From Fervidobacterium thailandense (GTDB lineage Bacteria > Thermotogota > Thermotogae > Thermotogales > Fervidobacteriaceae): a DNA stretch of 32,978 nucleotides. The DNA is taken from assembly GCF_001719065.1 (NCBI RefSeq), contig NZ_LWAF01000018.1, positions 1 through 32,978 of the forward strand. Direction: 5' to 3'. A model generated the notes under the pieces. The model had not been told where the DNA came from. It did no database searches and saw only the letters and a list, made by a program, of their open reading frames with translations. Positions 6,185 to 29,875 of the stretch are shown here, piece after piece; position 1 is the stretch's first letter, and the number at the start of each line of letters is the position of its first letter. The position numbers were made by a program, and so were the translations under genes.

Positions 6185-7612
6185 ATGTCAAGATATAGAA
6201 AGTTATTTACCGACACCTTAATACTAGCTGCTGGCAATCTTGGGACAAAAACGGTTCAGTTTTTGCTTCTGCCAGTTATTACGCGCTATCTTAGTCCAAA
6301 GGACCTTGGCAAGCTGGACATACTCTCTACAACTGTTTTGCTCATAGTCCCATTGTTTTCTCTGCAAATTCCAGAGGCTGTATTACGTTTTACAGTTGAA
6401 TATACGCGGAACAACGTTGAAACTACTGAATTACTTGTATCAGCACTCGTTTTTTCGTTCTTCAGTGCGGTACCCGTATTCTTCTTATGTTTGATTTCTT
6501 CAAAGCTCGAAACATTTAAAAACTTCGGCTTGTTCCTCTTTATTATTTACGTTTTATCTGTGCTCAACACTGTGCTTAGGCAGTACATCCGTGGCATAGA
6601 CAAAGTGAGAGTTTATGTCATTAGCGATCTTTTATATTCACTTAGCTTCGCTGTTTCGCTAGTTTTACTATTGAAAATTTTTAGCCTGGGTTTGAATGGA
6701 TATTTGCTTTCCATGGTGCTTGCTTTTTCAACATCGTTACTGTTTGTCGCACCAATCGTCTTCGTTTCGGTTGGCTGGTCAAAAAAATTATTACCCATCA
6801 ATACGGCGATTTTACGGCAGATGCTAATCTATTCTCTCCCGTTAGTTCCCAATGGTATAATGTGGTGGGTCATCACTGCTTCCGATAGATACATTCTGAG
6901 AGCTTTTTTGGGTTACGAAGCTACAGGAATTTATTCGGTTGCAACGAAGATTCCATCATTAGTTACGGTTTTTTACAGCGTTTTTCACCAAGCATGGCAA
7001 GTATCATCCATGGAGGAATCTTCAAACCAGAATTATCCAAAATACTTTACTATGGTTTTCTCCGCAGTTCAAACTTACCTCTTTCTAGGGGCGTCAATGG
7101 GCCTTCTCATTCTAAAGCCGTTTCTAAGTGTTTACATAAATGAGTCCTACGGTGAGTCGTGGAAGTATGTTCCGTTTTTGTTGCTCGGAGCAGTGTATCA
7201 AGTTTTTTCTGGATTCTTTGGGGTAAATTACGGGAACTTTAAAAGAACCGCGGGTGCATTTTACTCTACATTTATAGCTGCCTTAGTGAAGATTACAACG
7301 TTCCTATTTCTTCTTAAACCTGCCGGAATCCAGGCTGCATCTATTTCAACAATGCTCGGATATCTCTCGATGTGGATTATCCGGATTAGACATACTAAGG
7401 AGATAGCAAATGTGTATATCGACTCTAAGTTAAATATTGTTTGTTCCATTTTGTTAACTGCTCAAGCCACCAGTCTTACTATCCTTGGTGAGAATTCTTA
7501 CATTGTTCAACTTGCAATTTTTGGCGCTCTTCTGGGTTCAGTTCGTCGACATTTAAAGGCTCTCTTTGCTCTTTCTTTTTCATACATCAGGAGCGTGATG
7601 AAAGTTAAATGA
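6185..7612 (+). CDS. Wzx-type polysaccharide flippase (first)
   Basis: This 475-residue integral membrane protein of the MOP superfamily (oligosaccharide flippases) should move undecaprenyl-linked repeat units across the inner membrane. It opens with the family pattern DTLILAAGNLGTKTVQFLLL followed by LPVITRYLSPKDLGKLDIL, and has roughly 12-14 hydrophobic segments spread over its length, with short charged loops. The ATG at 6185 follows TTAGGAGTG. It is only distantly similar to the second flippase at 23934, so the two probably belong to different glycans. It is the last gene of the cassette with the CDP-ribitol synthase and polyol-phosphate transferase, and probably exports the product of that set. 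No terminator is evident after it. Confidence 0.9.
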   Translation: MSRYRKLFTDTLILAAGNLGTKTVQFLLLPVITRYLSPKDLGKLDILSTTVLLIVPLFSLQIPEAVLRFTVEYTRNNVETTELLVSALVFSFFSAVPVFFLCLISSKLETFKNFGLFLFIIYVLSVLNTVLRQYIRGIDKVRVYVISDLLYSLSFAVSLVLLLKIFSLGLNGYLLSMVLAFSTSLLFVAPIVFVSVGWSKKLLPINTAILRQMLIYSLPLVPNGIMWWVITASDRYILRAFLGYEATGIYSVATKIPSLVTVFYSVFHQAWQVSSMEESSNQNYPKYFTMVFSAVQTYLFLGASMGLLILKPFLSVYINESYGESWKYVPFLLLGAVYQVFSGFFGVNYGNFKRTAGAFYSTFIAALVKITTFLFLLKPAGIQAASISTMLGYLSMWIIRIRHTKEIANVYIDSKLNIVCSILLTAQATSLTILGENSYIVQLAIFGALLGSVRRHLKALFALSFSYIRSVMKVK

Positions 7613-8827: not shown

Positions 8828-11800
8828 GTGCCCAAACATGTCGCTAAGAAGCTTTGGTTTGGTTTTCTGCTCTCTGTTGTTCTCTTATCAGCGCAAACAG
8901 TTGTATCCTATACCATCAGAGTCGGTGATGTTATTGGTATTGATGTTTTCAACCAGCCAACCCTTTCAAGGAACGTCACCGTAGCCCTCGACGGAACTAT
9001 TTCGTATCCCTACGTAGGCACGGTTAAAGCCGCTGGTTTAACGGTTGATCAATTGAGAGGGATTATAGAACAGGGTGTTCGGAGAATTTTGAAAGACCCG
9101 ATCGTAACGGTTTATATCGTGCAACACGCTCCCGCTTACGTGTACATTCAGGGCGCAATCAATACGACAGTAAATATCTCCACGATCCCCAACCTCACGC
9201 TGACAAGACTCTTTTCCCACCTTGGGATAAACAAGAACGCTGAGGTTGACTTTTCGGATGTTCGGATCATACGCTCTGGACAGTCGCGTAGCTACAACAT
9301 GTTGGATTACATTTACGGTGGAATTCTCAAAGAAGACCCGGTTATCCAGGAGGGTGATATCGTCTATCTCCCTCCACTCACCGCCTCGAAGCTAATCACC
9401 GTTAACGGTGCTTATACACTTTCCACACCGTTCGAGCCCGGTATGACTTTGAGAACTGTCTTGCTGAAACTGGGACCACTTGATCGAACGAAGGCCATGA
9501 CCGAATCATCAAGCGTTCTTATCGACGGCCGACTCATCCCCGTAAATCTCGAAGATGTGGTACTTGGGAAATTTGATTTACCCCTCAAACCTGGTGCAAG
9601 TGTCTACATTCCGCGAAGAGATGTTCGCTACGTTTACGTTGTTGGGTTTGTCCCGTCCCCGGGAATGAAAGAATTCCAACCTGAAGAGCGAATGACACTG
9701 GCACTTGCGCTCACTAAAGCAGGAGGAATTCAGAAGAACGACGAGAAGTGGATTAGGAATATAAAAATAATTGCTCCAGATGGCAAAGTTACCGAATATG
9801 ATAAAGAAATACTGGGCAATGCCGTAAACGTTTCGCTAAGTTCCGGAACGACGGTGGAGGTAATCAAACATCCGGAGTTCAGGATATACCTTACTGGAGA
9901 CCTGCAAACGGGCATTATTACGTTCGATCCCGAAGAACCGAAGACGCTGGCAGGATTACTCTCAAAGATTGGTGGTCTGAAGACCGCAGATTTGAAGTGG
10001 ATTCAATCGGTAACTGTTAACGGTCGAGTTGTGGAGCTTTCGAAGGCGACTCAGGTGCCTTTGTCGAACAACGACGTTGTCGAAATCAAAAAGTATCCGG
10101 AATTTAAAGTTTACATCACGGGTGATTTTACAAATCAAAGTGTTGTAAGCTTTGAACCGGATGAACCGAAGACCTTGCAGCAACTGTTGGTCAAACTGGG
10201 TGGGTTAAAGACTGACCAAATCAAGTGGATCGAGAGTATCAAACTCAACGGGCAAACTGTTGACCTATCCAAGTTGTCGGTGTACAGTCTAAACGATAAA
10301 GATGTGGTCGAAATCAAAAAATATCCGGAGTTTCGTGTGTACTTGACTGGGGATTTCACCACGCAGACGCAGATAATCTTCGAGCCGGACGAGCCGAGGA
10401 CCATTCAACAGCTTCTTGTTAAAGTCGGAGGGCTCAAGACCGACCAACTTAAATGGATAGAGAGTATAAAATTGAACGGCCAGCCGGTGGAATTGTCAAA
10501 ACTCTCCAACTACACCCTCAAGGATAAAGACGTTGTCGAGATTAGAAAGTACCCAGAGTTCCGCGTGTACATAACCGGGGATTTCACAAACCAAACGCAG
10601 GTAAATTTTGAACCAGACGAGCCGAAAACACTCGAGCAACTCTTTATCAAAATCGGAGGTTTCAAAACAGACCAACTTAAATGGATAGAGAGTGTGAAAC
10701 TCAACGGGCAACGTGTGGATCTTTCCAAGTTGTCTAACTACGTACTAAAAGATAAGGACGTGGTCGAAATAAAGAAATATCCCGAGTTCTACGTTTATGT
10801 TCAGGGCCTCGTGAACACAAAGGGAAGAATCTTATTTGATCCTGAGGAGAAACGAACACTCAAGACACTCCTTGCAAAAGTTGGGCTTCCGAACGACGAA
10901 GTGGAAAACGAAGGCATGGTTCTAATCAACAACGAAACGACGATTGCCGTAAAGGATGTATTGTACGGAACAAAGGACTTACCACTTGCGCTCGGTGACA
11001 TGGTGCAAGTTTCGTACGAACCGTTCATTGTAAACGTGATTGGTCCTTCCGCTGGAACTGTCCAGCTTAGTTACAAAGAACCGCGTACATTGTCGTACTT
11101 GGTCAAGAAAGTTGGGATTACCGATCCTGAATCGGTGGAGAAAATCGTTCTGGTACGTGGAGGAAAGCAAACTGAATATGACGCAAAGCAGCTGCTGTTC
11201 GGGAACATACAGATTCCATTAAGCAAACTCGATACGGTAGTCGTCAAACCTGCTCTTGCGAACGCTGTCTACGTAACCGGTGATGTTGCTGCGTACGTAA
11301 CATTTGCTTCGAACGAACCGATAACACTTCAGAGGGTGATCTCGAAGATAGGTCTGAGTGATTTGAGAAGGGTTGATAAAATTATTGTTGAAGGTAAAGA
11401 AATACCAAAAGAAAGTGATGTACAACTTCAGCGAGGAACGATAGTCAACGTATCACTCAAGAAACCTATCTTCGTTACCGCAATGGGATACATACGCACC
11501 ACGGGTCGGGTGACGTTCGAGTACTACGAGACGGCAGATCTGAAAAACCTATTTGCCAAACTTGGTGGTTTGATCATCAATCCGGAAAGTTACTACTCAT
11601 CCGATACGGTGTACATCATCAGAGATGGCCGTGTCGTTGAGAGCTTCAACGCGTTCGAAGTATACACCGGTGTGAAGAACGCAGAACTGAAAGACGGCGA
11701 CTTTGTATACGTTACCGAAACACAACCAAAGCAAGTGTACGTCTTCGGAAAGGGTATGCCGAATGGACTTGTAAGGTTCACAGTGGGTGAGGAATTTGAC

Positions 11801-12523
11801 CTGAGAACCTTAATTGGAAAACTTGGTGGAATGCGCGATGGTGTGAGCAAGAACATCTCCATCGTTGACGGTGAAAAAGTCCAAACGATAACTTGGAACG
11901 AATATGTGAACATGAAACTCACAACGAATGCGATCGTACTTTTCGACGTTGACAAAGAAAACTTCATCTACATCATCGACGCAAACGGAAAACCGGACAT
12001 GTTCTACACCGACAGACCGGTCACACTGTACGAAGTACTGACAAAAGTCGGATTGAACAAAAACTATCGCAGGATAGAGATAACTTCCGGGACACAAAAG
12101 CAAACAGTTCAGCTGAAAGACATCTCACAAGCTCGAAGCTACAACGTTAAACCGGGGGATGTAATAAGGGTCTTGGACGTACCTGAGAACTTTGCGTACG
12201 TACTCGGCGAAGTCAATAGACCGGGCATAATCACGCTCAATGAAAACACAACGGTCTTGCAGGCCATAATTCAAGCGGGATACTTTACATCAAAAGCCGT
12301 ACCCTCGAGCGTCTGGCTGTACAAAGGTGGAGTAAACGGTAAACCAGTGCGAGTCAACCTGCAGGCAGCGGTTAGCGGTGGAAACATCGACTTCAACCCG
12401 GTCGTGGAACCTGGAGACATCGTGTTCGTACCAACAGATATGTTTAAAACAGCCCTCGAATGGATACCGATTATAAACAATCTTATCCAGTTCTACAACA
12501 ACGTTAGTAACTTATTCAAATGA
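8828..12523 (+). CDS. Giant SLBB-repeat polysaccharide export protein
   Basis: This 1231-residue envelope protein is probably the export channel or periplasmic conduit of the polysaccharide system. Residues 1-28 form a signal peptide (KK then a hydrophobic run, cleavage near SAQTVVSYT). Residues ~28-105 are the Wza-type polysaccharide export domain (RVGDVIGIDVFNQPTLSRNV, then DGTISYPYVGTVKAAGLTVD). The rest is about a dozen SLBB (beta-grasp) domains; Wza has two to three and is about 380 residues. Four units at 9869-10777 (residues 348-650) are tandem copies of 75-76 residues, the last three nearly identical. The tail near WIPIINNLIQFYNNV is amphipathic and could contact the membrane. Start: GTG 8828, eight bases after AGGAGG; the nearby ATG 8823 is out of frame. 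It is the first gene of the operon, ahead of the Wzz-like gene. Confidence 0.85.
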   Translation: MPKHVAKKLWFGFLLSVVLLSAQTVVSYTIRVGDVIGIDVFNQPTLSRNVTVALDGTISYPYVGTVKAAGLTVDQLRGIIEQGVRRILKDPIVTVYIVQHAPAYVYIQGAINTTVNISTIPNLTLTRLFSHLGINKNAEVDFSDVRIIRSGQSRSYNMLDYIYGGILKEDPVIQEGDIVYLPPLTASKLITVNGAYTLSTPFEPGMTLRTVLLKLGPLDRTKAMTESSSVLIDGRLIPVNLEDVVLGKFDLPLKPGASVYIPRRDVRYVYVVGFVPSPGMKEFQPEERMTLALALTKAGGIQKNDEKWIRNIKIIAPDGKVTEYDKEILGNAVNVSLSSGTTVEVIKHPEFRIYLTGDLQTGIITFDPEEPKTLAGLLSKIGGLKTADLKWIQSVTVNGRVVELSKATQVPLSNNDVVEIKKYPEFKVYITGDFTNQSVVSFEPDEPKTLQQLLVKLGGLKTDQIKWIESIKLNGQTVDLSKLSVYSLNDKDVVEIKKYPEFRVYLTGDFTTQTQIIFEPDEPRTIQQLLVKVGGLKTDQLKWIESIKLNGQPVELSKLSNYTLKDKDVVEIRKYPEFRVYITGDFTNQTQVNFEPDEPKTLEQLFIKIGGFKTDQLKWIESVKLNGQRVDLSKLSNYVLKDKDVVEIKKYPEFYVYVQGLVNTKGRILFDPEEKRTLKTLLAKVGLPNDEVENEGMVLINNETTIAVKDVLYGTKDLPLALGDMVQVSYEPFIVNVIGPSAGTVQLSYKEPRTLSYLVKKVGITDPESVEKIVLVRGGKQTEYDAKQLLFGNIQIPLSKLDTVVVKPALANAVYVTGDVAAYVTFASNEPITLQRVISKIGLSDLRRVDKIIVEGKEIPKESDVQLQRGTIVNVSLKKPIFVTAMGYIRTTGRVTFEYYETADLKNLFAKLGGLIINPESYYSSDTVYIIRDGRVVESFNAFEVYTGVKNAELKDGDFVYVTETQPKQVYVFGKGMPNGLVRFTVGEEFDLRTLIGKLGGMRDGVSKNISIVDGEKVQTITWNEYVNMKLTTNAIVLFDVDKENFIYIIDANGKPDMFYTDRPVTLYEVLTKVGLNKNYRRIEITSGTQKQTVQLKDISQARSYNVKPGDVIRVLDVPENFAYVLGEVNRPGIITLNENTTVLQAIIQAGYFTSKAVPSSVWLYKGGVNGKPVRVNLQAAVSGGNIDFNPVVEPGDIVFVPTDMFKTALEWIPIINNLIQFYNNVSNLFK
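9869..10777 (+). repeat. Tandem 225/228-bp SLBB-domain repeats
   Basis: Four in-frame direct repeats begin at 9869, 10094, 10322 and 10550 (lengths 225, 228, 228, 228 bases). Each encodes a unit starting YPEF or HPEF, then VYxTGDF, a DEPKTLxQLL stretch, GGLKTDQ, KWIES and ending KDVVEIKK. Units 2-4 differ at few residues, so they arose by recent internal duplication. The bases differ mostly at third positions, so the protein is under selection. Confidence 0.9.
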
Positions 12524-12552: not shown

Positions 12553-14430
12553 GTGACGACGAGCAATTACGTTAGGGTAAAGGATGATATCACTGTAACA
12601 GATATTCTTAAAATATTGAAGAAAAGGATCAAGGTGGTCTTCCTTGTTTTCACCATTACTTTGCTCTTCACCATTCTCTACGTAGAATTTGTGGCCACTC
12701 CTTTGTACGAAGCGACCGCTAAACTGAAAATTCCTGCAACTTCCAGTGGATTCGGAACGTTAGGGTCAGTTGCAGCTCTAATACTTGGAACCGAAGGTAC
12801 AGGTAGTCCAGATGTTACGACACAGCAAGAAATAATGTTGAGCAGAACGGTTTTAGAGGAGGTTGTGAGAAAAACAGGTCTGCTCGAGGTAAAACAAAGG
12901 CGGGAAAATAACAAAAATTTAACCATGGATCAGGTGGTTGACTACTTGAAACGTAAGAAAACGATTTCAATTTCAAGTGTAAAAAATTCATCTATAATTG
13001 AGATCAAGGTATACGACAGCGATCGAGAGCTGGCCAAAAAGATCCTCGAGGAATTGATTAACAGCTACATAGCCACGTATGTGAGACTCAACAAAGACGA
13101 AAAGACCGCGCAACTTGAGGTTCTTGAGCGCCAAATTCCGGAGCTTGAACGTGAAATTGCTGAAATAGGTGAAAAGATAAAGAATTTTAAGTTAACAAAG
13201 TCGGTTTCTCCAAGTCAAGAGGGTGAACTGTACGTATCAGCGATAGCGACACTGGCAAAGGAAAAGTATGAAACTGAAAACGAAATCCAGAGCACGAAAG
13301 CGGCGGTTGCGAGGATAGAGGCTCAAATAAATGCTTTGCAAGCCGACAAGAAAAAACTCGGATACACACCAACGAGTGGATTGCTTGAAAAATACCGTGC
13401 TGAGCTTGCCGAGCTTCAAACAAGGTATAGCTCTTTGATTCAACAATACACGGAAGATCATCCCGACGTAAAATCAACCAGAGCTCAAATAGAACAGGTT
13501 GAGCGGGAGATCGAAAAGGAAATACAGAGGATAGTATCTTCAAAAATAGAGTCTCCAAGTCCGTTACTTCAAGAGCTATACAGTCAGCTCATTGAAAACA
13601 AGCTCAAGTTACCGATTCTTGAAACGAAACTCTCGGCTTTGAACAAGTCAATTCAAGATGTTGAGTCAAAGCTCAAAAAACTACCGCTTATAGAGCAAGA
13701 ATACCTGAACTTAGAAAGAGACTACAAAATAAAGCAAACGATTTACGCAGCCCTGGTGCAAAAATACGAAGAACTCAAACTTAACGCTGCCGGATCAGAG
13801 GCGAACAAACCACAGATAGTTGATCCTCCGTACGTGCCAGAACGTCCGTCAAAACCAGACAAAAAGTTGTCATTAGCCATAGGAGCTGTTGCAGGGCTAT
13901 TCATGGCTTTTCTTAGCGCTTTTCTGAGGGAGGGCTTGGATAAGAAACTGAGGACTATCGAAGATTTATTAAGTATTATCTCCGTTCCGTTAATACTCTT
14001 GGCGAAGTCTGATAGAGAAAAAGCTTTAAGTACAATGTTTACGCATATTCTCAATAACTTTCCTAAAGATCATAACTTCGCGTTAATTAGTCCCGATAGT
14101 GAACGTGCTTTAGAACTTGCCTACAACTTGAGTCAAAAGGTACTTAATGACAGCAAACTATCTTTCAGCGTACTATCAATTGATGACACTGAATTAGTTT
14201 GCCTTGATAAAAAAATTGGCAACGAACATAATGATAACGGAATACTTATATTAAAAGCTCCCGTTCTCGAAAAAAGTTACCAGGGGTACATCGTAGCCAA
14301 GAAATCCGATGGTGTGATCTTAGTCGTGGAATTACATCATTCCTTAAAGACGAATGTCTTGAACTTCCTCTCGTGGTGCTCCGAGAATGAAATAAAAGTT
14401 TACGGAGTGATAATCTTTGAGCAAACCTGA
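12553..14430 (+). CDS. Wzz/BY-kinase-like polysaccharide co-polymerase with degenerate kinase domain
   Basis: This 625-residue inner-membrane protein probably sets chain length and couples polymerisation to export. The N-terminal Wzz domain has its first membrane helix near residues 27-50 (VVFLVFTITLLFTILYVEF). A long charged coiled coil follows (~170-410), then a proline-rich PYVPERPSKPDKK stretch and a second helix near 437-460. The remaining ~165 residues follow the fold order of a tyrosine autokinase but lack a usable Walker A loop: FALISPDSERALELAYNLSQ sits where GxxxxGKS/T is expected, and there is no tyrosine-rich tail. The late strand SDGVILVVELHHSLKT still matches. The domain is therefore a pseudokinase. 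GTG 12553 follows AGGAGGG; the stop overlaps the next start by one base. Confidence 0.85.
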   Translation: MTTSNYVRVKDDITVTDILKILKKRIKVVFLVFTITLLFTILYVEFVATPLYEATAKLKIPATSSGFGTLGSVAALILGTEGTGSPDVTTQQEIMLSRTVLEEVVRKTGLLEVKQRRENNKNLTMDQVVDYLKRKKTISISSVKNSSIIEIKVYDSDRELAKKILEELINSYIATYVRLNKDEKTAQLEVLERQIPELEREIAEIGEKIKNFKLTKSVSPSQEGELYVSAIATLAKEKYETENEIQSTKAAVARIEAQINALQADKKKLGYTPTSGLLEKYRAELAELQTRYSSLIQQYTEDHPDVKSTRAQIEQVEREIEKEIQRIVSSKIESPSPLLQELYSQLIENKLKLPILETKLSALNKSIQDVESKLKKLPLIEQEYLNLERDYKIKQTIYAALVQKYEELKLNAAGSEANKPQIVDPPYVPERPSKPDKKLSLAIGAVAGLFMAFLSAFLREGLDKKLRTIEDLLSIISVPLILLAKSDREKALSTMFTHILNNFPKDHNFALISPDSERALELAYNLSQKVLNDSKLSFSVLSIDDTELVCLDKKIGNEHNDNGILILKAPVLEKSYQGYIVAKKSDGVILVVELHHSLKTNVLNFLSWCSENEIKVYGVIIFEQT

Positions 14431-15740
14431 TGAAAAACCTCAGTGTAAAAGGTTTGATAAAATATGGTGAGGGCAATGAGAAAAGCGGGGGTGTTAAAAT
14501 TTTAATCCTTGTAAGCCTGTTGACCGTGTATACCATCTTCTTTACTGTTACTAAGAACATCCTAATAGCAACTTTTGCATCGGTCATTTGGGTGATAACA
14601 GCATACGCGTTTAGAACATTCGAGTTTGATGCCCTTGAGAGCCTCAACGAACAGTTGGTTAGAATCTTAGTTTCATCGTTTTTTTCAGGCATGTTCATTC
14701 TTTTACCAGAGCTTACAGATACCCCAAACTTCTCGGGAAAACAGATTTTGAAAGGACTTCTTTACACTTATTTCGCCACTCCCTTCTTAAATTACGTACT
14801 CTACAATTTCCTCTTCTTGCGTCTTTCAAAGCCAAGACATTATTTGGTGATTGGTAGAAAAGAAGAAGAGGTCGGCCGTATACTTGACGAAATAACTGAG
14901 AAGTCCCGTGGCAAAATTGTTTTTGAAGAATTTTTAAATCCATCCCCCGCTGTTCTCAAAGTGAAACTGGATAACTTTAATGATATACTAGTTGCAGACT
15001 TTGAACTTTACAAACGCGTAAAACATATCTTGGAACCGTACAAGTCTTCTAAAAAGATAGAGTATTTATCCGATCTGTCGGAGAAGATACTCCGAAGGAT
15101 TCCTCTCGAAGTTGTCGATAGATTTCGAGAGTATTATGAAATAGAGTTCGAAAATGCAAAAGAATCACCTACTAAGCGTATTCTTGATATGTTTGGAGCA
15201 ATATTAGGGCTCGTGTTTTTTGCACCGATCATACTAATCGCGGCGGTTGCGATTTTAATTGAGGATGGTCCACCCGTAGTTTTCAAGCAACTCAGAGTTG
15301 GAAAAAACAATAAGGAGTTCATGATTGTCAAACTCCGGAGTATGAAAAAACAAACCGATGGCCAAGCTCGGTTTGCAGACCAAGAAAAGGATCGAATACT
15401 CAAAATAGGCAAGATAATACGTCCCACCAGGATAGATGAAGCACTTCAGTTCTGGAACATTCTGAAGGGTGATATGAGTCTCGTCGGTCCCAGGCCAGAG
15501 CAAATACCGTTTGTCAGGGAGTTTGAGCAGAAGATTCCGTACTATTCCTACCGCCACAAACTCAAACCAGGTCTCACAGGATGGGCTCAGATAATGTACC
15601 AATACAGCTCAACGCTTGAAGAGGTTAAAAGAAAACTTGAGTACGATTTGTACTACATAAAGAACCGCTCAACACTCATGGACCTAAGAATAATTCTCCA
15701 GACGATAGAAGCGGTATTTTGGAGAAGAGGGGCTAAATGA
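14430..15740 (+). CDS. Polyprenyl glycosylphosphotransferase (WbaP/WcaJ-type initiating enzyme)
   Basis: This 436-residue membrane enzyme transfers a sugar-1-phosphate from a UDP-sugar to undecaprenyl phosphate, the first step of repeat-unit building. The N-terminal ~130 residues contain about four membrane helices; a soluble linker follows. The C-terminal bacterial sugar transferase domain (~248-430) has TKRILDMFGAILGLVFFAPI (membrane-associated helix), VFKQLRVGKNNKEFMIVKLR, the catalytic-region DE in RPTRIDEALQFWNILKGDMS, LVGPRPE near 351, and the KPGLTGWAQ stretch. This is the classical full-length (PHPT) layout. ATG 14430 overlaps the Wzz stop by one base, so translation is probably coupled. 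The sugar is most often glucose or galactose in this family; here it is undetermined. Confidence 0.93.
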   Translation: MKNLSVKGLIKYGEGNEKSGGVKILILVSLLTVYTIFFTVTKNILIATFASVIWVITAYAFRTFEFDALESLNEQLVRILVSSFFSGMFILLPELTDTPNFSGKQILKGLLYTYFATPFLNYVLYNFLFLRLSKPRHYLVIGRKEEEVGRILDEITEKSRGKIVFEEFLNPSPAVLKVKLDNFNDILVADFELYKRVKHILEPYKSSKKIEYLSDLSEKILRRIPLEVVDRFREYYEIEFENAKESPTKRILDMFGAILGLVFFAPIILIAAVAILIEDGPPVVFKQLRVGKNNKEFMIVKLRSMKKQTDGQARFADQEKDRILKIGKIIRPTRIDEALQFWNILKGDMSLVGPRPEQIPFVREFEQKIPYYSYRHKLKPGLTGWAQIMYQYSSTLEEVKRKLEYDLYYIKNRSTLMDLRIILQTIEAVFWRRGAK

Positions 15741-28372: not shown

Positions 28373-29875
28373 GTGAGGAGGCTCGTCTTTTACGGTATTT
28401 TCCTTCTCGTATTGAGCGTTGACATAGTGTTTGCCGATTTTGTTTTAAATGTGACTAATCATGATTTTAGTAGTTTCGTACCTGTTGGTTCTGGAACACG
28501 AGTTGTGTTTACTCCTGCTCTGTTTGTGTCGAACTACCCTCGCAACGTGGTATCGAGTAAGGGTTCCACCGGCTACGTTTTGGTAAACCCTGCTGAGGGC
28601 ATTTTTTATCTCCATGATCAACTCCCGCCGCTTGCTGAGTTTGGACTTAGTTACAGAGGACGGAATTTCGGTCTGCAGCTGAACTTCGAGCATAAGTACT
28701 CGTTGGGAGCTGCGCTGGTGAAACTTGAAAAATTCACAAACGTGCCCTTAAACCTCGTTGAATATCTTACGGTGGACTTGCCAAGAGCCTTCGATACCAC
28801 AACACCTCACGAGGCTTTTGCTTATTGGTACACTGAAGACCTGTTCTTAGCGTTAGGGCGTTTTAAGATTAAGTGGGGAGATGCGCGCTATCCGATTCAC
28901 ATTTCCGATGTCACATTCCAAGATAACTTAACGTTCAGCGCTAACATTGAACCGTTTCGTTTCACTTTTCACATCATATCGATACTTCCTTGGCTAACGG
29001 CTGAAGAGTTGTACGTTCAAAGTAATTACACACGGGGCGGAGAAACGAGAACTGCGTACACCGAGCCGTACAGAACGATTTTTGCACATAGATTTGATTG
29101 GTTTATTAACTTTCTGGAAGCCACCGTTAGGGTCGGGTTAAGTGAATTGAATCTTGTCGGTGGGAAAATGCCAGATTTGATCGATTTAAGTCCGGTCATG
29201 TTTTTACACAATACCTGGGGCGAGGCGTACAGCAACGTGACCGGGGGACTGGATTTTTCAGTGAGATACAAGGATAGGTGGAAAATATATGGAGAGCTTG
29301 TTTTTGATAACCTCCAACTTCCCACTGAAAAGGGTGACACTTCAAATCCTGAAGCTTACGCGTGGAACGTCGGGGTGGAATATTCAACAAAGCAGGCAAC
29401 CTTTGACCTTACGTTGTGGAGCGAGTATTCGTTCATCAGTGAATGGATGTATGTCTCTGTTGGACTGCCTTACTTAACGTTTGCCACGAGGCAATATCGG
29501 TTAGATCAGTACGTAGGAAAGGCATTTCTCGTAGACTACCCTCTTGGGTTCATCTACGGTCCGGATGCGCGAATGTTTTCTGCGGGTCTGGATTTGAAAT
29601 TTCCCTCGCAGGATTTAAGAGCATCATTCGAGTACAACTACCTTACAAAGGGTTGTGTAAAAGACGAGGAAGTAATAAGGTGGAAATGGTTTTGGGATAG
29701 ATGGACAGCGAACATCCCCGGGCTGAAAAGTGAAACAGAGCCCGCTGGATATGTAACACTTCACATATTCAAGCTAATTTTAGGCTGGAAAAACTTGAGC
29801 TCGACGTTAGTTTTCAATTTGGGTTGGCCAGAAAATTCAGTACTTTTCATGCTTTCATGTAGACTTCCTTTTTAA
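28373..29875 (+). CDS. Predicted outer-membrane beta-barrel protein (possibly Wzi-like)
   Basis: This 500-residue protein has an N-terminal signal peptide (MRRLVFYGIFLLVLSVDIVFA) and then long runs of alternating hydrophobic and polar residues rich in Y, F and W (for example FGLSYRGRNFGLQLNFEHKY), as in outer-membrane barrels. It ends in LPF, with the terminal aromatic residue typical of barrel-assembly signals. Size and layout resemble capsule-assembly Wzi-type barrels, which would fit the nearby polysaccharide locus, but I cannot show the Wzi core motifs, so the specific name is a guess. The start is GTG 28373, with GGAAGTGGG just upstream. It is preceded by a 105-base gap with no convincing promoter. 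Confidence 0.65.
   Translation: MRRLVFYGIFLLVLSVDIVFADFVLNVTNHDFSSFVPVGSGTRVVFTPALFVSNYPRNVVSSKGSTGYVLVNPAEGIFYLHDQLPPLAEFGLSYRGRNFGLQLNFEHKYSLGAALVKLEKFTNVPLNLVEYLTVDLPRAFDTTTPHEAFAYWYTEDLFLALGRFKIKWGDARYPIHISDVTFQDNLTFSANIEPFRFTFHIISILPWLTAEELYVQSNYTRGGETRTAYTEPYRTIFAHRFDWFINFLEATVRVGLSELNLVGGKMPDLIDLSPVMFLHNTWGEAYSNVTGGLDFSVRYKDRWKIYGELVFDNLQLPTEKGDTSNPEAYAWNVGVEYSTKQATFDLTLWSEYSFISEWMYVSVGLPYLTFATRQYRLDQYVGKAFLVDYPLGFIYGPDARMFSAGLDLKFPSQDLRASFEYNYLTKGCVKDEEVIRWKWFWDRWTANIPGLKSETEPAGYVTLHIFKLILGWKNLSSTLVFNLGWPENSVLFMLSCRLPF

Follow-up and report, generated by a model that had tools for sequence, protein, structure and literature searches.

SLBB domain number in the Wza-type export proteins of Thermotogota correlates with the length of the OmpA rods of the toga

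The Wza-type (OPX) proteins of Thermotogota are enlarged by SLBB domains, and the number of these domains rises with the length of the longest OmpA (r = 0.90, Spearman 0.91; 52 genomes). We consider it probable that the protein from Fervidobacterium thailandense described here forms a conduit of stacked rings whose length is adjusted to the toga gap. With less assurance, we lean towards the wider proposal that Thermotogota keep export tube and toga rods in step through whole SLBB rings, SLBB number then gauging the depth of the periplasm. On this reading, the protein exports the polysaccharide of a Wzx/Wzy-type pathway across the outer membrane and would assemble as a Wza-like oligomer with one ring per SLBB domain, its 14 domains giving a tube of ~40 nm that is seated on the copolymerase and whose far end is a pore of C-terminal helices in the toga membrane. 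Tube length would be an evolvable trait that changes as an internal cassette gains or loses units, and selection for the fit between tube and gap would over evolutionary time have kept SLBB number in step with the length of the coiled-coil OmpA rods, which set how far the toga stands from the cell body.

The export protein and its locus

The window, which is the whole stretch of 32,978 nucleotides that was analysed, carries the OPX gene at positions 8828–12523 of the forward strand, where it starts at a GTG and encodes 1231 residues with 14 SLBB domains (ORF call, Pfam and clade profile). A signal peptide region, of the Sec type by inspection, covers residues 1–25 (8828–8902, +) and is followed by the Poly_export domain PF02563 at residues 26–97 (8903–9118, +), which Pfam scores at 77.7 bits against a cut-off of 28. 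The general Pfam SLBB models each rise above threshold over one stretch, at the C-terminal end of the protein (SLBB_2 121.9 bits, SLBB 75.4 bits). The count of 14 was obtained by cutting the sequence at a motif that recurs along it and then searching with a clade-specific profile built from the units, which tile residues 104–1203; an earlier, sequence-only reading had put about a dozen SLBB domains in the 1231 residues, and this estimate held up. Unit alignment divides the chain into a conserved N-terminal frame of S1–S3 (residues 104–350; 9137–9877, +), a cassette of S4–S7 that is variable among relatives (residues 351–653; 9878–10786, +) and a conserved C-terminal frame of S8–S14 (residues 654–1203; 10787–12436, +). 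The tail is conserved in relatives and contains a helix in the AlphaFold2 model (residues 1209–1229; 12452–12514, +), which is a candidate outer-membrane anchor or pore helix.

The protein belongs to the OPX family, with its Poly_export domain, downstream SLBB domains, and copolymerase and Wzx/Wzy genes nearby. It has no cysteine anywhere and hence no lipobox, so the lipoprotein signal of class 1 is absent; this signal occurs in ~78% of class 1 OPX proteins and is common but not obligatory (PMC9603273). Pfam found no match in the protein at E 0.01 to Wza_C, the amphipathic C-terminal helix with which class 1 proteins cross the outer membrane, and none to GfcC (PF06251; class 2, KpsD type), and in model superposition the last SLBB domain with the helix resembles GfcC 3p42 (Z 9.6, 3.5 Å over 95 residues). 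Class 3 OPX proteins are without the C-terminal helix and often have a paired beta-barrel porin gene. The sole barrel-like ORF noticed in the window (28373–29875, 500 residues) lies outside the core operon and has a signal peptide, a beta-barrel-like sequence and a terminal Phe; it may encode an outer-membrane barrel, and Pfam assigned it to no confident family, the best weak hint being the MtrB/PioB barrel at E 0.08.

Immediately downstream lie genes for a polysaccharide copolymerase with Wzz and GNVR domains (12553–14430, +; Pfam) and an initiating sugar-phosphate transferase (Bac_transf; 14430–15740, +; Pfam), and upstream is a Wzx-type flippase candidate (Polysacc_synt, 10 TM-like segments; 6185–7612, +; Pfam and TM inspection). 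The window also encodes flippase candidates, glycosyltransferases and a UDP-galactopyranose mutase. The copolymerase, transferase and flippase candidates around the gene indicate that the OPX protein is that of a Wzx/Wzy-type polysaccharide locus. No kinase domain was detected in the copolymerase at 12553–14430. A second OPX gene, 84% identical, is present in the same genome (G000:C2, L102:6316–10056, −), where the copolymerase (L102:4084–6300) keeps an AAA/BY-kinase-like domain and is followed by a CpsB/CapC phosphatase gene. The two OPX genes are 94–100% identical over ~11798–12067, with window positions 12455–12501 listed alongside, and 187 nt (11858–12044, +) are identical against a background of ~70–75%. 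Judged from the sequences, this identity in S12–S13 is best read as a recent gene-conversion tract between the two genes.

Phylum-wide enlargement and the age of the repeats

PF02563 was found in 83 of 103 Thermotogota genomes. The complete Thermotogota OPX ORFs that were extracted carry 8–20 SLBB domains each by the clade profile, and none has two or three. Enlargement is thus phylum-wide, which rules out a strain oddity. In the family of the window protein, the units match S1, S2 and S8–S14 one to one, and the S4-type units between S3 and S8 number 0, 1, 2 or 3 in relatives and 4 in the window; S3 is missing from the 9-unit relatives G010, G005 and G011, and unit assignment is less clear for the divergent 9-unit pair G008/G014. 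Because the ends are kept while the S4-type copies range from 0 to 4, the internal cassette is the main site of length change. A search of genome contigs with a narrower alignment gave matches only in Fervidobacterium and Thermosipho MAGs and one weak match in Kapabacteria. In one Fervidobacterium MAG (L108, G006:C2), the OPX gene is broken into two open frames of 428 and 665 residues, by a frameshift or an assembly error.

Within the cassette, S5, S6 and S7 form three tandem 228-bp units (10103–10786, +; Tandem Repeats Finder and unit comparison). The sequence-only reading had recognized these three consecutive units, in a register 9 nt off (10094–10777), and had described them as almost identical products of recent duplication. 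Neither description fits: the units share 68–74% of their DNA (67.5, 74.1 and 72.8% among the three) and ~79% of their protein sequence (78–80%), and Tandem Repeats Finder reports 74% matches. Between 41 and 51 of the 76 third codon positions differ, and synonymous differences are saturated (pS 0.73–0.94), which excludes a recent duplication and indicates that the three units are old. The same triplet is present in the second OPX gene, and the like-positioned units are closest in protein, so the triplication is older than the duplication of the OPX gene. On this sequence evidence, the units appear to have been held by purifying selection since before that gene duplication. The same reading had predicted length variation between strains by way of the 228-bp units. 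Close relatives do vary in length, but the changes lie elsewhere: G002 and G017, with rpoB 99.9% identical, are one whole unit apart, and G095 has adjacent units identical over 225 nt of DNA.

SLBB number and the length of the toga rods

A tube that bridges the space from cell to toga is expected to follow in length the rods that set the gap. In Thermotoga maritima, this rod is OmpA1, which consists of an SLH domain and a 316-residue coiled coil and holds the toga ~50 nm from the membrane (PMC3387000). As a yardstick, the stretch of OmpA from the SLH domain to the C-terminus was measured in 100 SLH ORFs from the phylum, 96 of which have a coiled-coil-like hydrophobic period, and OmpA length was taken as a proxy for the cell–toga gap. 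Two ORFs were left out by inspection, L124 (864 residues) and L188 (no coiled coil, high Pro/Gly). The gap relevant to the tube is the regular, OmpA-set spacing along the cell and not the ballooned poles; the sequence-only reading had let the tube span a wide, ballooning periplasm. L124 (G000:C16:6300–9600) encodes a third SLH protein that is mostly coiled-coil-like and about twice the length of OmpA, and very long SLH ORFs (980–1053 residues) also occur in genus g2; such a third long SLH protein might serve where the gap widens, at the ballooned poles.

Across the phylum, rods of ~250 to 520 residues pair with OPX proteins of 8 to 20 SLBB domains. The relation holds for the shortest OmpA as well (0.84; 52 genomes) and is strong inside family f1 (r = 0.98, n = 15) and family f9 (r = 0.93, n = 12); in family f2, where there is little variation, SLBB number is unrelated to OmpA length. 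When families were left out one at a time, unit number was predicted with an error of 1.2–1.5 units, except for f11, which exceeds the prediction by up to 6 units (14 predicted and 20 seen in two genomes). Genome size did not predict OmpA length (P = 0.29). Copolymerase (PCP) length was rejected as a co-varying ruler, being unrelated to OmpA length under PGLS (P = 0.43), and SLBB number remained significant for OmpA length beside either PCP length or genome size. TamB was considered as a second trans-periplasmic yardstick and dropped, as PF04357 occurs in 0 of the 103 Thermotogota genomes; it is present in several control genomes of other diderms. In eight f9 genomes (G060, G074, G078, G095, G076, G050, G064 and G068), an ompA-like SLH gene lies within ~10–15 kb of the OPX gene, whereas those of the window genome lie far from the OPX gene or on other contigs.

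Shared ancestry, or a lineage-wide lengthening of repeat-rich envelope proteins, might produce such a correlation without any functional fit. The relation was therefore examined on an rpoB tree. PGLS with maximum-likelihood lambda (0.92) gave 16.7 ± 1.9 coil residues per SLBB (P = 1.4e-11), and genus-level PGLS under Brownian motion gave r = 0.85 (P = 1.5e-8, n = 27). At the species level, independent contrasts under plain Brownian motion showed no relation (r = 0.06) and PGLS with unscaled branches gave r = 0.27 (P = 0.05), and the likelihood strongly favours lambda < 1 (−232.5 vs −255.6). We attribute the null species-level contrasts to pairs that rpoB hardly separates and that nevertheless differ in a single trait; between G002 (12 units, 420 residues) and G017 (13 units, 404 residues), one trait shifts without the other. 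These null contrasts, together with the position of f11 as a whole high on both axes, are what ancestry alone would lead one to expect, but it does not account for the strength of the relation inside f1 and f9, for its survival under lambda-PGLS and genus-level Brownian PGLS, or for the copolymerase taking no part in it, and we regard this explanation as unlikely. On the timescale of genera, SLBB number and OmpA length match to within one to two units; at the finest scale they do not.

SLBB stands for soluble-ligand binding. The additional domains might then be glycan-binding beads that raise affinity or processivity or give a hold on peptidoglycan, their number having nothing to do with distance. 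SLBB domains have indeed been proposed to bind sugars (PMC1796856), and in G095, where the units are identical in DNA, recent duplication altered unit number with little change in OmpA. Neither the correlation with OmpA nor a slope close to one ring for each unit would be expected of such beads, and we hold this reading slightly less likely than shared ancestry. A tube whose length is fitted to the gap thus remains the reading that we prefer.

Predicted geometry and known systems

At 0.1485 nm per residue, the rod lengthens by 2.5 nm (PGLS) to 3.7 nm (Theil-Sen) for each SLBB domain; f1 alone gives 4.9 nm, which is more than one ring. Wza, made up of three periplasmic domains and a membrane barrel, has a length of 140 Å, and the Wza–Wzc complex measures 360 Å (PMC12881504). 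From these dimensions one ring would be of the order of 3 nm, so that the slope per SLBB is roughly one Wza ring. In the window genome, 14 rings would make ~42 nm against a rod of ~62 nm, and the remainder could be taken up by the Poly_export ring and the copolymerase; the regression intercept of 9 nm is compatible with such a remainder but not specific to it.

Class 1 OPX proteins of the Wza type are octameric stacks of rings. Two segments of the window protein, N-terminal and distal, were modelled as monomers with AlphaFold2 (mean pLDDT 90 and 87). Poly_export-S1-S2 superposes as a single body on Wza (Z 15.4, 3.7 Å, 237 residues), and S11–S12 superposes on the two SLBB domains of Wza (3.1 Å over 154 residues); S12–S13 fits the Wza pair less well (4.8 Å over 149). 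The SLBB domains might instead fold back as a compact periplasmic cap, and the pTM of 0.49 for the distal model leaves room for other long-range arrangements. A cap would, however, have no need to follow the length of a spacer, and the Wza-like geometry of the N-terminal module and of S11–S12, whose counterparts in Wza are axially stacked, favours axial stacking in these models, making a cap very improbable. The sequence-only suggestion of a long periplasmic tube thus finds strong, though indirect, support in the co-variation with the toga rod and in the Wza-like modules; its premise of recent, near-identical duplication is wrong for this gene.

Like E. coli Wza (class 1 OPX; PDB 2j58, 2w8i, 9r60 and 9r64), the window protein has a Poly_export domain followed by SLBB domains, an adjacent copolymerase gene and a predicted C-terminal helix. 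It differs in having 14 SLBB domains instead of 2, in having neither lipobox nor cysteine nor a Wza_C domain detected by Pfam, and in the helix, which spans ~21 residues in the model versus 35 in Wza. Earlier records of SLBB number in OPX proteins run from 1 to 8 (PMC1796856), and Saidi et al. 2022 give 1–14 for class 1, including long Poly_export-SLBB(n) proteins with up to 14 domains like the one described here (PMC9603273). Since numbers up to 14 were already on record, long OPX proteins as such are not unknown. The main text of that study contains no term beginning with Thermotog- and draws no link between SLBB number and periplasm depth (PMC9603273), whereas 8–20 units are found here; in the open-access literature, we found no paper on Thermotogota OPX forms or on SLBB number versus periplasm depth.

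To our knowledge, there is little natural comparative evidence for trans-envelope proteins fitting the periplasm, and Thermotogota as a phylum seem to have carried out this test in nature. SLBB number would offer a predictor of toga gap width from sequence alone, and the relation provides a direct test of whether a Wza-type exporter has to extend to the copolymerase in order to function. The yardstick itself is of the OmpA1/Omp-alpha type of T. maritima (PMC3387000), with an SLH domain, a long coiled coil and a hydrophobic C-terminus; such rods are not part of the export machine and are encoded outside the OPX locus in the window genome. In E. coli, RcsF no longer signals when Lpp is made longer, unless RcsF is extended as well (PMC5736177). 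There (PMC5736177, PMC8824477), the gap is set by a coiled-coil spacer with which a trans-envelope protein has to agree in length, and the same would apply here; the E. coli case is an engineered change with a flexible linker, whereas ours is a comparative pattern in which a repeat protein that would form rings is paired with OmpA rods. Fit as a principle is thus already known from E. coli, and the comparative relation between SLBB number and OmpA length is new.
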